Shown piece by piece: positions 37,012 to 60,659 of a stretch of 64,000 nucleotides of DNA. Made by a program: the position numbers and the translations under genes. Every line of letters begins with the position of its first letter. Within the stretch, counting starts at the first letter, position 1. Source of the DNA: Chamaelirium japonicum (Eukaryota; Streptophyta; Magnoliopsida; Liliales; Melanthiaceae); contig OX393551.1 of assembly GCA_947650365.1 (NCBI GenBank), forward strand, positions 5,950,001-6,014,000, written 5' to 3'. The notes under the pieces are model-generated. The model worked only from the letters and a program-made list of their open reading frames with translations. It had not been told where the DNA came from and made no database searches.

Positions 37012-37399
37012 GGGGAGGGACACTCTTACTAATGGAATCTTACTAATGAAAGTTACAAATCACTTTTTACCTACCTAGACGTTTCAGAATTTGATGAAAC
37101 TTGGTGGGGATGCTCTCTATGGCAAGTTGATCATTATCACCAAAAATCAACAAATTCTATGACCTCTAGAGGCATCAAAGATGTTATTTAAATTAACGGT
37201 TAAAATGAACGGTCGATAAAGATTCTAACATTTGATACCTTAGAGGTTATAGAATTTGATGATTTTTAGTGAGGATGATCAACTTTCCATAGAGAGCATC
37301 CCCACCAAGTTTCTTCAAATTCAGAAACCTCTAGGTTAGGTAAAAGGCGATTTGTAACTTTCATTAGTAAGATTCCATTAGTAAGAGTATCCCTGCCCT
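37012..37399. mobile_element. Foldback element FB-1, bracketed by (TA)n
   Basis: Arms of about 180 bp are inverted copies: GGGGAGGGACACTCTTACTA (left) matches the inverse of TAGTAAGAGTATCCCTGCCC (right). The inner stem carries the family core (GTGAGGATGATCA at about 37268). The loop TTAACGGTTAAAATGAACGG lies near 37193. (TA)n borders both sides, as expected if insertion targeted a TA repeat. Outer arm sequence is private to this copy. Confidence 0.88.
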
Positions 37400-37421
37400 A
37401 TATATATATATATATATATAG
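37399..37421. repeat. (TA)n tract
   Basis: About 11 TA units between FB-1 and GC-rich hairpin copy B. Confidence 0.95.
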
Positions 37422-37423
37422 AA

Positions 37424-37566
37424 ATGCTAGAATGCGGCATGCGGTAAGTGCGGCACCTACCGCATGCCGTCTGATGCACCGCTGCGTGCATGCAATGCAC
37501 GCAGCGCGTGCATCAGACGGCTGGGGTACTGTGCCGCACGTACCGCATGCCGCAGCATAGCATGCC
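37424..37566. repeat. GC-rich hairpin (copy B) between (TA)n tracts
   Basis: Inverted arms share GCGGCATGCGGTA (left) and TACCGCATGCCGC (right), and GTCTGATGCAC against GTGCATCAGAC, around a loop near 37485-37495. Clearly homologous to copies A (556-673) and C (38698-38837). Confidence 0.85.
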
Positions 37567-37568
37567 CC

Positions 37569-37697
37569 TATATATATATATATATATATATATATATATA
37601 TATATATATATATATATATATATATATATATATATATATATATATATATATATATATATATATATATATATATATATATATATATATATATATATAT
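37569..37697. repeat. (TA)n tract
   Basis: About 64 uninterrupted TA units between hairpin B and foldback FB-2. Confidence 0.98.
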
Positions 37698-38097
37698 GAG
37701 GAATGGGATGCTGCCTATCAAAGCAGCGTTTTTGCTGCTTTGAGACATTGTTTGACCATCCTAGAAGTTTTGGAATTTGATGAAATTTGGTGAGGGTGTT
37801 GTCTAGGGTAAGATGATCATCCTCACAAATTTTCATCAAAATCCAAAACTTCTAAGAGGGTCAAATGGTCGAAGCAAAATGCTGCAGATTTTAACGACGA
37901 CTGCAGACAACTAATTTTGCTTCGACCATTTGAACCCCCTAGAAGTTTTGGAATTTGATGAAAATTTGTGAGGATGATCATCTTACCCTAGACAACACCC
38001 TCACCAAATTTTATCAAATTCCAAAACTTCTAGGATGGTCAAACAATGTCTCAAAGCAACAAAAAATGCTGCTTCGATAGGCAGCATCCCATTCCTC
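37698..38097. mobile_element. Foldback element FB-2, 400 bp near-perfect palindrome
   Basis: GAGGAATGGGATGCTGCCTA opens the left arm and TAGGCAGCATCCCATTCCTC closes the right. The arms run about 195 bp each with few mismatches, including a CTAGAAGTTTTGGAATTTGA block and the family core GTGAGGATGATCATCTTACC. The centre carries TTTTAACGACGACTGCAGAC. The outer arm differs from FB-1, FB-3 and FB-4. Bordered by (TA)n left and (TC)n-(TA)n right. Confidence 0.92.
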
Positions 38098-56926: not shown

Positions 56927-58613
56927 TGATTGACACTAAAATATGTCGATTTTAATACATTATAGTTGACCATATATACATAACTTCATCATAGACGATA
57001 TATACTTTGATGCATATTTTTGACATGCAAGGAAATAAAGACATGGTTCAAAAATAAGCTAAAAGCGGAGGATAGAGCAAGCAAAGGAATACAAAAGGAG
57101 TCTAAGTTCGTATGGAACAGAAGAGGACCGGACCCGAATACGGAATTCAACATAACCAACATTCCGACCGGGGCATATTGACCAATCTGCTCGGGCGAAT
57201 TTGCAAAATACAACAACCGTTCAATAAGACGGAGCGCACAGCCGGAACCGGTTGACAACTGTTTTATAACTAATTCGTACGATCGAGAGAATAGGAACCA
57301 ACTCTTCTGAGAGCTATAAAGGCCCCCAAATTCGAAGGAACAATGGACGAACCTCTGGAAAGAAGAAGACACCATTGCTTAAGGGTTGGAGAGATCTTGG
57401 GCATCCGAGTGACTCCGGCAACCGTGGGTGTGATCTATCATACTTGTCGTTGTTTTCAATAAGAATATGGTGTTCTAAATCAATCTAGGGTTCCAGGGGA
57501 ATCCTAACAATGTATTTTTCTAACTTTCTCGATGATAAGAATCACAATTCATTTTTGATTAATGTATGATTTGAGTGTTTTTCTATTTAATATTGAGTAC
57601 TAGTATTCTCGTTATATCCGTGATGGTGATATGATTAGAATACTAATCTCCATCATATAGGTTGTGTGGAAAGCCCTCCTAGATGATTGTCATGCATAAT
57701 TTTAATGAAATTCTATGCTGTAACCTCGGATAGGTCGTACTCAAGCGAGACGACTTGCGATCCAATCGGACAAGTCGTACTTAGTTTCGGATGGTCTATA
57801 CTCAGGGCGGTATAGATTATCATTCTGTGGTATTATTGTGGTGAAAAATCTGATAATACCGAATTTGGAAGAGATCGTCTAATCTACCCGCTAGATATAA
57901 CTTGCTGAAAATAATAAGGATTATATCAATGACATTGTCATTCATTACCCTTGGATTAGGGATGAATGAAATAGAGTTTATTAACAACATTACCCTTGGA
58001 TTAGGGATGCTACTAATAAAATAAGAGAAATATATTTTATTACTAATGTTACCCTTGGATTAGGGACATTGTGATAAAATATATCTTCAAGATATTTATA
58101 ATTCTACTTCTGTTTATAATTTGGTGAAGATAATATGGATTCAATACTATCAATCACATTATCATTCATTACCCTTGGATTAGGGATGAATGAAATGGAG
58201 TTTTAATGGCATTACCTTTGGATTAGGGATGTTAGTGATAAAATAAGAAAAATATGTTTTATTACTGACGTTACCCTTGGATTAGGGATGTTGTGATAAA
58301 ATATATCTTTTTGATTCATATAATTCTATATTCAAATTACGTGGCATATCTCTTTGAGAGAAATATATTTTCATATCGCTAGAGGCAACTCTGTGATCCT
58401 AGTTTTCAACCAAAAGTTTATTCCTCATCTTTAGTTTAATTTAATTTAGTGAATTAAATCAAAATTCATCTCTTTGATCTATCCTAAACTTATTAGAAAG
58501 ATTGTTACTTTAACCTTCTCTGTGGGAACGATCCGGTATTAATCTTCTACTACAATTGATCCGTCACTAATACCGGGATACACAAAAATCTAACATACGG
58601 TTTGAGGGTATCA
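56927..58613 (+). repeat. 3' LTR of the Athila-type element, 1687 bp
   Basis: Starts TGATTGACACTAAAATATG after the polypurine tract and ends TTTGAGGGTATCA, equivalent to the end of the 5' LTR at 47143. It holds six copies of TTACCCTTGGATTAGGG or near variants at about 57945, 57989, 58049, 58169, 58212 and 58271. The 5' LTR fragment keeps only the last. Confidence 0.85.
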
Positions 58614-58721
58614 ACGATAAATTTGACTTACACACCCATCTATATAACAAGAGACGACGGTCTACATGCTGACTTGGACAAAACGGAACAAAATACTGAC
58701 TAGACAAAAAAGAACATTGAC

Positions 58722-59213
58722 TAGACTCTCTCTCTTTCCCCACCCGGTTTTCTCTCTCTCTCTCTCTCTCTCTCTCTCTCTCTCTCTCTCTTCCCCCGAT
58801 ATTTCTCTCTTTGTATCTCCCTTTCTTTCACCGATCTCTCTCTCTGTCCCCGTATCTCTCTCTTTCCCGATATCTCTTTCTCTCTCTCTTTTCGTCTCTC
58901 TCTTCCCTACGATCTCTCTTCCCAAAATATCTCTCTCCCCGGTTCTCTCACTTTCTCTCCCCACCCGGTTTTCTCTCTCTGTCTTTATCTTTCTCTTTGT
59001 TTCTCTCTCTCTATTTCTCCCCACCCCGTTTTCTCTCTCTGTCTCTCTTTTTCCCCGACTATCTCTCTCGTTGGTTCTTCTTTATCTCTCTCTCTCTCTC
59101 TCTCTCCGTATCTCTCTCTGTATCTTTCTCTTTCTCTCCATCTCACACTCTCTCTATCTTCCCCATTATCTCTCTCTCTCTCTCCATCTCTTCTCTTCCC
59201 CTGATCTCTCTCT
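58722..59213. repeat. 490-bp pyrimidine-rich (TC)n-derived tract
   Basis: Almost pure C/T on the plus strand: CTCTCT runs interrupted by TTTCCCC, CCCCGAT and CCACCCGG. All ORFs through it (Ser-Leu or Arg-Glu rich) are artefacts. It lies about 110 bp after the Athila 3' LTR. Confidence 0.95.
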
Positions 59214-59450
59214 TAGGGCTGGCAATTTTGGACCCGACATGAAATTAGCAGGTCTGGGTCAAACAGGTTCGGGTCGTAAATGGATTAACATGACTAACCC
59301 GTTTAGTAAACGAGTCGGGTCCGGGTTTTGTCTCCGATCCGTTTGGCCCGTTTAAGACCCGTTTAAAAATCAATGGGTTACCCCTCAAAAAAAAAAAATC
59401 AATGGGTTACCCCTAAAAAAAAAAAAAATCAATGGGTCGAGTCGGGTCTA
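59214..59450. mobile_element. hAT-like repeat fragment (related to 6541-7354)
   Basis: TAGGGCTGGCAATTTTGGAC at 59214 and the following GACCCG/CGGGTC-rich body match the repeat at 6580 and 6917. Near 59370-59436 it contains three A-run plus TCAATGGGTTACCCC units. No right terminus found. Confidence 0.55.
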
Positions 59451-60160
59451 CCCAGCATCCGATCACAGTGTGCGATGGGTTGAACGGAAGACTGTGATCA
59501 GGACACCCATGATGGTGAGTTGCAACAAAATAAAAAATTAAAAAAATAAAGAATAAATATTTATTAAACAGGTTTTACCGAGGCTTAGTGGGTCTACTGT
59601 AGTGCCGCTGATTGCGATCCACTTCAGTGCGGACATGTGTTGTTGCCCCGAATGTGATCCGACTATATTTTGCCGCCGAAGGCGGCCCGCTACAGTGCCG
59701 ACAGGCACGGACATGACTAGTATCTATATGACATTTGGGAATAACCCTCTAACTTAATCATAGTTATGCATGCCCCCCAAACTGATGGACACTCCAAATT
59801 ACTTTAGAGGAGTCTGCGGGTGGACTACAAGAACGCGCTACTGTTGAGGAGTCAAACCCAAGCAACCTAGGCAAACGGTGTAGATAGTCCCTGGCTCGAC
59901 TGCACGCCTCCAAAATCGAACCCAAATCCTCTGTCCAATCGTTTGTCCCGCCAAGTCACAGCCGTATGATGCACCCATATCCGATCGGTGCATCTTATTC
60001 ATCCTCAACTGGCCGGAAAAGAAATGGCTCTGATTGGCCCCACCAGCTTGTACCTGATCACTACCGTCCCTTTGCCTGTCGGTTGGGGTGAGTGCGATGC
60101 ACTGGTCGGGTATTAGTGAAACGGACGGCTGTGACTTGGGTGCAGACGATGGGGGCAGAA
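59451..60160. other. Intergenic sequence, nothing recognised
   Basis: Moderate GC. Short TGCATC/GATGCA words near 59965-60110 recall the GC-rich hairpins but form no hairpin. No ORF of known family. Confidence 0.45.
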
Positions 60161-60271
60161 TATATATATATATATATATATATATATATATATATATATA
60201 TATATATATATATATATATATATATATATATATATATATATATATATATATATATATATATATATATATAT
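60161..60271. repeat. (TA)n tract
   Basis: About 55 uninterrupted TA units on the left flank of foldback FB-4. Confidence 0.98.
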
Positions 60272-60659
60272 GGGAAATGAGTTCCTATGACATGTCATAG
60301 GGAGTACCCTATGACATATGGTGAGTTAGTAACCCTAGAATATTTAGAATGTTTTGAATTTTTATGAGGATGATCACTCTATCTTAGATAGGACCCCCGC
60401 AAAAAATCGGCTCATTATAAAACTTCTAGAAGCATCAAATATGATTTTCAATTTAACGGTTAAAATGGATGGCCGATAAAACTTCTAGCATTTGATGCCC
60501 CAACAAGTTTTAGAATGCTTTGATTTTTTGTGGACATTCTATCTAAGGTAAGATGATCACCCTCAAAAAAATTCAGCACATTCTAAACATTTTAACCTTA
60601 CTAATTCACCATATGTCATAGGGTACTCCCTATGACATGTCATAGGAACCCAGCCCTCT
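60272..60659. mobile_element. Foldback element FB-4, bracketed by (TA)n, upstream of URB1
   Basis: GTTCCTATGACATGTCATAG (left) is mirrored by CTATGACATGTCATAGGAAC (right). The arms of about 185 bp also share ATGAGGATGATCA and its inverse TGATCACCCTC. The loop TTAACGGTTAAAATGGATGG lies near 60453. (TA)n lies on both sides. Its right edge is about 136 bp from the URB1 start codon. Confidence 0.9.

Follow-up and report, generated by a model that had tools for sequence, protein, structure and literature searches.

The window examined here is a 64,000-nucleotide stretch of the Chamaelirium japonicum genome (contig OX393551.1, C3:5950001-6014000), which contains four hairpin elements, FB-1 to FB-4, bracketed by dinucleotide repeats (Table 1). 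An initial annotation made from these letters had placed FB-1, FB-2, FB-4 and a split FB-3 at roughly the positions where we find them, and their common core is borne out by the word GAGGATGATCA, present without mismatch at 37271, 37814, 37970, 39087, 46554 and 60366. Families that have the same core under different, internally matched arms, as that annotation supposed, do exist. We propose that matched end pairs and cores have probably been exchanged as modules, and that the two arms of an element are homogenised only rarely, in the master lineages that give rise to families.

Structure and setting of the elements

Folding confirmed the hairpin for the two elements examined in this way, with energies far below those of shuffled sequences (z = -27.3 for FB-1 and -20.9 for FB-4). 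Inverted repeats cover most of each element, with arms of about 165 of 388-400 bp, which is a Foldback-like feature. By eye, every arm in turn contains a sub-hairpin of about 100-117 bp, so that each element has four CCTAGARGTTTT... segments. The flanks are (TA)n, as noted before, with (TC)n on the right side of FB-2 and (CA)n on the right side of FB-3. The two pieces reported for FB-3 are both real but belong to a single element that was cut by a long terminal repeat (LTR) retrotransposon. Six members form an array at 37012-39126, in the order FB-1, a 147-bp hairpin, FB-2, a 274-bp element, a 146-bp hairpin and FB-3, separated by (TA)n or (TC)n; here different families are joined by microsatellites without nesting, as judged by eye.

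Relative to FB-1, FB-2 and FB-3, both arms of FB-4 carry the sub-hairpin centre in inverted orientation. The asymmetric centre is also reversed in both arms of the GATCCAGAG, GTTCAATG and, weakly, GATCCGTGG families compared with the FB-1 group, which amounts to inversion of a quasi-palindrome.

Dinucleotide repeats were found on both sides of 109 of the 116 distinct full-length copies that we sampled, on one side of 6 and on neither side of 1. The 232 flanks comprised 193 of TA, 26 of TC/GA and 13 without a repeat; loci were picked by core match and not by flank. The sole copy lacking a microsatellite on either flank (L059 852-1240) is bordered flush by a duplication of 10 bp, TCTAGATGAA, a single case where target duplications of 8-11 bp would be expected outside microsatellites. 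Together with matching terminal inverted repeats (TIRs) in 117 of 119 elements (see below), the microsatellite flanks fit non-autonomous, microsatellite-targeted, Mutator-like hairpin miniature inverted-repeat transposable elements (MITEs), a class to which the elements would belong along with SaTar, Ac-mMITE, MuTAnT and Micron.

A common core under the ends of large families

Across the genome (1,518,659,071 bases in 3253 contigs), GAGGATGATCA occurs 35,508 times (17,811 + 17,697), against 413 (201 + 212) for the reversed word. Whole-element similarity searches, in which the window copy was included, returned near-complete copies for every member. With 40 of 4633 first-look candidates scored, FB-1 had 40 places that matched over no fewer than 378 of its 388 bases, at 94-95% identity besides the window copy; FB-2 (40 scored of 1931) had 41 places over 399-400 of 400 bases at 98-99%, plus one over 384 at 96%; FB-4 (40 scored of 2889) had 40 places over at least 385 of 388 bases at 97-98%; and the FB-3 half (40 scored of 3718) had 40 places over at least 233 of 241 bases at 90-93%. 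The outer arms, first described as private to each member, are thus the ends of large families with many end-to-end copies. A single continuous consensus including the outer arms, which had been named as an outcome that would refute the earlier reading, holds inside each family but fails between families.

For closer analysis, we assembled a catalogue of 91 sequences (90 loci and the window; 359,812 bases with some overlap), with loci chosen because they match the core or resemble FB-1, FB-2 or FB-4, plus a stretch of contig C1. Cutting at dinucleotide repeats yielded 325 distinct segments, 152 of which carry the core word either exactly or with one mismatch. Consensuses were built for 16 end clusters and 12 of these were used as families, resting on 32 copies for FB-1, 26 for FB-2 (3 of them core-lacking), 19 for FB-4, 12 for GTTACAG, 11 for GGATCGG, 8 for FB-3, 5 for GATCCAGTG and 2, 2, 1, 1 and 1 for the others. 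GTTACAG and similar names are labels coined here after words within the ends. The CATGACTT family has no full-length copy in the set of 116. One FB-4 copy (L080 1501-1904) has part of its end duplicated on one side and could be useful for the history of the ends.

Three layers combined as a mosaic

Three layers make up each element: two matched ends of about 48 bp, two sub-hairpin modules of about 100-117 bp and a loop of about 63-75 bp. All twelve families have the core in common and differ in the outer 48-62 bp or so. Over the 66 family pairs, identity averaged 0.715 in the 100-bp module and 0.513 in the outer arm (shuffled mean 0.473, maximum 0.503), and the two were uncorrelated (Spearman 0.19, p = 0.12). 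Modules of FB-2, FB-3 and GTTACAG are 96-98% identical beside outer arms that are 54-64% identical, and FB-1 and GATCCAGTG agree at 93% in the module and 52% in the outer arm. Low outer-arm identity beside high module identity amounts to a step at the border, and gradual divergence of the ends is disfavoured by this step. The outer arms are nevertheless less than wholly different, as they had been called: identity between families is low, but FB-2 and FB-3 are 64% alike against 47% for shuffled sequences, and outer-arm identity exceeds 0.55 in 10 of the 66 pairs.

Ends of these kinds are found on other interiors too, the likeness extending for about 46-50 bases by eye. Our sample included 5, 3, 4 and 5 coreless elements whose left and right ends both fall into the FB-1, FB-2, FB-3 and GTTACAG end clusters, respectively, those of the last having ends that are related but not identical to GTTACAG. 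Their interiors did not match the core-bearing interiors of other clusters at 1e-6. Conversely, two further interior types stand under differing ends (76% identity over 599 bases and 74% over 281 bases). The interior of about 600 bp that is 76% alike lies under two end kinds, at L021, L022, L050, L074 and L075 and at L015, L026, L050 and L071, so that sharing of interiors is not confined to the GAGGATGATCA core.

Loops and modules are discordant as well. The FB-1 loop is 0.87 identical to that of FB-4, 0.83 to GATCCAGAG and 0.89 to GATCCAGTG, and despite this likeness of loops the modules of FB-1 and FB-4 agree at only 0.65 (0.69 when flipped). By contrast, the FB-1 module is 0.81-0.83 identical to those of FB-2, FB-3 and GTTACAG, whose loops agree with the FB-1 loop at 0.54-0.68; for FB-3, the values are 0.82 in the modules and 0.57 in the loops. 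That each hairpin arose separately, by inverted duplication about its centre, is rejected where the asymmetric loop is shared, as it is between FB-1 and FB-4 and between FB-1 and GATCCAGTG.

In 8 of 16 right arms, a word is repeated to an extent matched by at most 7 of 300 shuffles, the remaining 8 being unremarkable. These words may be protein-binding sites.

Ends are matched in nearly every element

Among sampled core elements 330-470 bp long, 119 had an end kind assigned on either side, and in 117 of them the two kinds agree. Genome-wide, exact copies of both matching ends, spaced as in an element, were counted 1173 times for FB-2, 633 times for GTTACAG and 263 times for FB-1, all lower bounds because a single mismatch loses a copy, and the reversed controls gave 0. 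Three genome-wide exact patterns for mixed ends (FB-2 with GTTACAG, FB-2 with FB-1 and FB-1 with FB-4) returned no element. At a subfamily site of FB-2, a hand count of 26 of the 1173 elements gave G/G in 18, T/T in 3, G/T in 2 and another base in 3. The two G/T elements lie at C1:8310414-8310799 and C1:14530689-14531075. One of them has a module start that is unlike in one arm, and both may be arm chimeras within one end kind.

Arms are concerted between families and inherited in young copies

We compared the four half-elements of each family pair, scoring a site as concerted when the arms are alike inside each family and unlike between families; pairs share families, so the counts are not independent. 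Among the 7 families represented by 5 or more copies, the 21 pairs gave 389 concerted, 0 orthologous, 0 crossed, 115 single-arm and 45 other sites, which upholds the earlier argument that independent divergence of the arms is insufficient. All 66 pairs of the 12 families gave 1317 concerted, 24 orthologous, 12 crossed, 837 single-arm and 322 other sites. The loop, which is asymmetric in several families, was inherited while both arms changed together. A tree of the modules paired an element's own arms for FB-4, GGATCGG, CATGACTT and GATCCGTGG; arms were identical in FB-1 and GTTACAG, and the other families were not settled.

Young copies behave differently. Within families, we used rows passing a 94% filter, which dropped three core-lacking FB-2 rows (L014, L034 and L077), a divergent FB-1 row (L067, 0.797), 10 of 11 GGATCGG rows, all 12 GTTACAG rows and 4 of 8 FB-3 rows, so that this test covers FB-1, FB-2 and FB-4. 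Correction visible within copies was not supported: the same arm was more alike between copies than were the two arms of one copy (0.969 versus 0.923 for FB-1, 0.988 versus 0.976 for FB-2 and 0.971 versus 0.823 for FB-4), and mirrored mutations were at chance level in FB-1 (6 versus 4.5 expected) and absent in FB-4 (0 versus 0.3). Pairs of copies less than 3% diverged had 3978 orthologous against 71 concerted sites. The concerted fraction of concerted plus single-arm sites rose from 0.019 in these pairs through 0.038 and 0.059 to 0.236 at 10-15% and 0.275 at 15-25% divergence; the bin above 25%, which consists of the rows L014, L034 and L077 that were kept in the consensuses and unfiltered alignments, was not used. 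The rising concerted share and the inherited arms of young copies indicate that homogenisation takes place in the lineages between families and old subfamilies and not in ordinary copies.

Other features of the window

The retrotransposon inside FB-3 has TG...CA ends and a direct repeat that begins at 39126 and 45294 and is 100% identical over 300 bases; it looks young, as the repeat starts are identical over at least 300 bases. GC-rich hairpins of about 146-150 bp, two of which lie in the array, are very common (49 elements in one cluster of cut segments) and are essentially coreless ends set in the same TA tracts. A 178-bp segment at 753-929 carries on its left an end of the GTTACG type and on its right one of the GATCCAGTG type with a module, and resembles two array neighbours joined by a deletion.

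Table 1. Hairpin elements and neighbouring features, with positions counted from the first base of the window
Feature	Position	Strand	Description
FB-1	37012..37398	.	Hairpin element of the GGGRAGGGATACTCTTACTAATG family, about 388 bp
FB-1 left outer arm	37012..37074	+	TIR plus junction, 62-63 bp; repeated word TCTTACTAATG
GC-rich hairpin, 147 bp	37422..37568	.	Array neighbour of FB-1, without core word; TIR type GGGGCATGCTATAATGCGGCATGCG
FB-2	37698..38097	.	400-bp hairpin element of the GAGGAATGGGATGCTGCCTATC family
274-bp array member	38193..38466	.	Core word absent; FB-3-type TIR at right end
GC-rich hairpin, 146 bp	38698..38843	.	Like the hairpin at 37422-37568
FB-3 left part	38984..39126	+	
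LTR retrotransposon interrupting FB-3	39127..46443	.	5-bp duplication CTTCT
FB-3 right part	46444..46681	+	Starts with the second CTTCT; outer arm type GGGAGCCTAGACC / GGGATGCTGGACC
FB-4	60272..60658	.	Hairpin of the GGGAAATGAGTTCCTATGACATG family, about 387 bp; sub-hairpin centre inverted relative to FB-1

Proposed module exchange and its alternatives

On the reading that we consider probable, cores and matched pairs of ends move between elements as modules, and hairpin-templated repair makes the arms alike, a rare event in master lineages. The exchange of ends and cores would come about during repair, by recombination or template switching, and may follow excision and involve neighbours in (TA)n arrays. 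Elements with matching ends would alone be mobilised if one transposase must bind both. Change would pass from arm to arm by hairpin-templated repair, in the form of gene conversion or snap-back synthesis that runs outward from the inner stem and spares the loop, and such copying would be rare and confined to the master lineages that found families. Single steps of this kind have precedents: in Galileo, an insert appears to have been copied between inverted repeats (PMC4168063), and Pack-TIR elements capture sequence by gap filling with template switching at short homology (PMC8277862).

A number of points weigh against this proposal. Loci were not sampled at random, and 5 of the 12 families are based on one or two copies. 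Neither the sample nor the three exact patterns contained an intermediate with two end kinds, so the exchange step is unobserved; of the two elements with mismatched ends, we judge by eye that one (L074 1121-1556) is a fusion with part of a neighbour and the other (L043 2647-3011) a degenerate copy resembling FB-1. In the module tree, 6 of 19 inner branches are well supported, and the arms of GATCCAGAG (one copy) are unpaired, the right arm grouping with GTTCAATG at 95/91. FB-2 showed a small excess of mirrored cells (3 versus 0.2 expected), and unfiltered alignments gave mirrored excesses for FB-1 (12 versus 5.3), FB-2 (86 versus 15), GTTACAG (130 versus 52) and FB-3 (30 versus 10); we read these unfiltered excesses as subfamily structure, and the unfiltered alignment of GGATCGG had none (9 versus 16). 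A scan of the sampled loci for coding remains in open frames gave nothing that was taken further, with no search made for transposase families.

The leading rival, which we regard as unlikely but worth keeping in mind, is that older Mutator-like MITE ends captured a ready-made core hairpin in the manner of Pack-MULEs, so that the arms are the acceptor's own ends and were never swapped or copied. Ends on unrelated interiors, interiors under different ends and the failure of the three exact patterns to find mixed ends would all follow, and gap filling by template switching in Pack-TIR elements is known (PMC8277862). Capture accounts for the ends but not for the concerted core modules (389 to 0 sites), and it leaves unexplained how FB-1 and FB-4 came to have a changed module pair around a shared asymmetric loop; under free capture, one would also not expect a border that is nearly constant at 62-64 bp in 9 of 12 families. 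That constancy of outer-arm length is consistent with a scenario without exchange, in which all families descend from one hairpin and their ends evolve very fast, with arm-to-arm correction, as they track changing transposases in a way comparable to VANC in Arabidopsis VANDAL elements, whose targets are repeats that differ among related elements (PMC5735166). The words repeated in half of the right arms and the ten family pairs whose outer arms exceed 0.55 where the shuffled maximum is 0.503, FB-2 and FB-3 among them, are in line with such descent. However, outer arms at 54% identity beside modules at 96-98% would need a more than tenfold difference in rate within about 48 bp, and the same end kinds are seen on unrelated interiors; we judge this scenario improbable.

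Two further explanations carry far less weight. Hairpin-templated correction going on in every copy, the stronger version advanced by the initial annotation, could draw on the small FB-2 excess and on one FB-2 end site at which a hand count of 26 elements gave 15 G/G, 5 G/A and 6 A/A, as stepwise correction would yield. FB-4, however, has 81 single-arm changes and 0 mirrored ones, of the changes at asymmetric sites, 12 of 27 in FB-4 and 3 of 12 in FB-1 lead to the base of the partner arm, and orthologous sites far outnumber concerted ones below 3% divergence. For FB-1 and FB-4, ongoing correction is rejected, given mirrored changes at chance level or absent and inherited arms, and as a general account it is very improbable. 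Least credible, to the point of being negligible, is a core that is a separate MITE nested inside unrelated hairpin MITEs. Coreless hairpins such as the 147-bp kind do occur alongside, yet the border position is nearly constant, consensus halves inspected by eye have no direct duplication there, and coreless elements with the same ends carry other interiors in place of empty sites; nested insertion, the other outcome named beforehand as refuting, is rejected on these grounds. The interpretation put forward in that annotation is partly supported.

Relation to known elements

Comparison with described systems, drawn from the accessible parts of the published accounts, places the proposed module exchange beside several partial parallels. 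SaTar elements of guayule, rice, sorghum and citrus (PMC5907723), which include rice Micron as rSaTar2, are likewise small, with long inverted ends, dinucleotide-repeat flanks and non-nested arrays of unrelated families; several gSaTar families are 380-425 bp long with inverted repeats of 150-180 bp, and some copies have 10-bp duplications. Going by these descriptions, SaTar families are treated as unrelated, and the accessible text of that report makes no mention of a common core with exchanged ends or of concerted arms. Ac-mMITE-1 and Ac-mMITE-2 of pineapple (PMC8449440) also have (TA)n flanks, clusters, 9/10-bp duplications outside microsatellites and GA...TC ends by (GA)n/(TC)n, but their pattern is the opposite one, two families with common ends and different insides where ours have a common inside and different ends. 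MuTAnT of Medicago (PMC4486113) is a Mutator-like fold-back of four similar segments that targets (TA)n and makes 9-bp duplications; it differs in being 292 bp long with 218 copies in two subfamilies, and end exchange is not described in the part of the account available.

In the Drosophila fold-back element Galileo (PMC4168063), segments or elements recruited into one inverted repeat reach both, as if copied between arms, but Galileo belongs to the P superfamily, its changes are inserts within arms and not wholesale replacement of ends, and it does not target microsatellites. The Arabidopsis VANDAL/VANC system (PMC5735166) is Mutator-like too, with family-specific short repeated non-coding motifs that change together; unlike the elements described here, VANDALs are long, have autonomous relatives and have a known binding protein. 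Searches of open-access listings for exchanged ends, arm correction or concerted evolution of fold-backs brought up no paper with a description of such elements.

Implications for MITE evolution

Taken a step further, and put forward only tentatively, the elements could form an end-renewing transposon family, in which end pairs, modules and loops recombine as cassettes, hairpin-templated repair makes each exchange symmetrical in one step and the core gains new transposases through new matched ends. MITE families are usually viewed as deletion derivatives of one autonomous element whose ends they keep. Here, by contrast, the same interior appears with twelve or more kinds of end, left and right agreeing in each. 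The shift from inherited to concerted arms near 10% divergence in our sample offers a natural test of when and how the arms of plant palindromes are homogenised. If ends can be exchanged and made symmetrical, a MITE could outlast its own transposase by adopting the ends of another.

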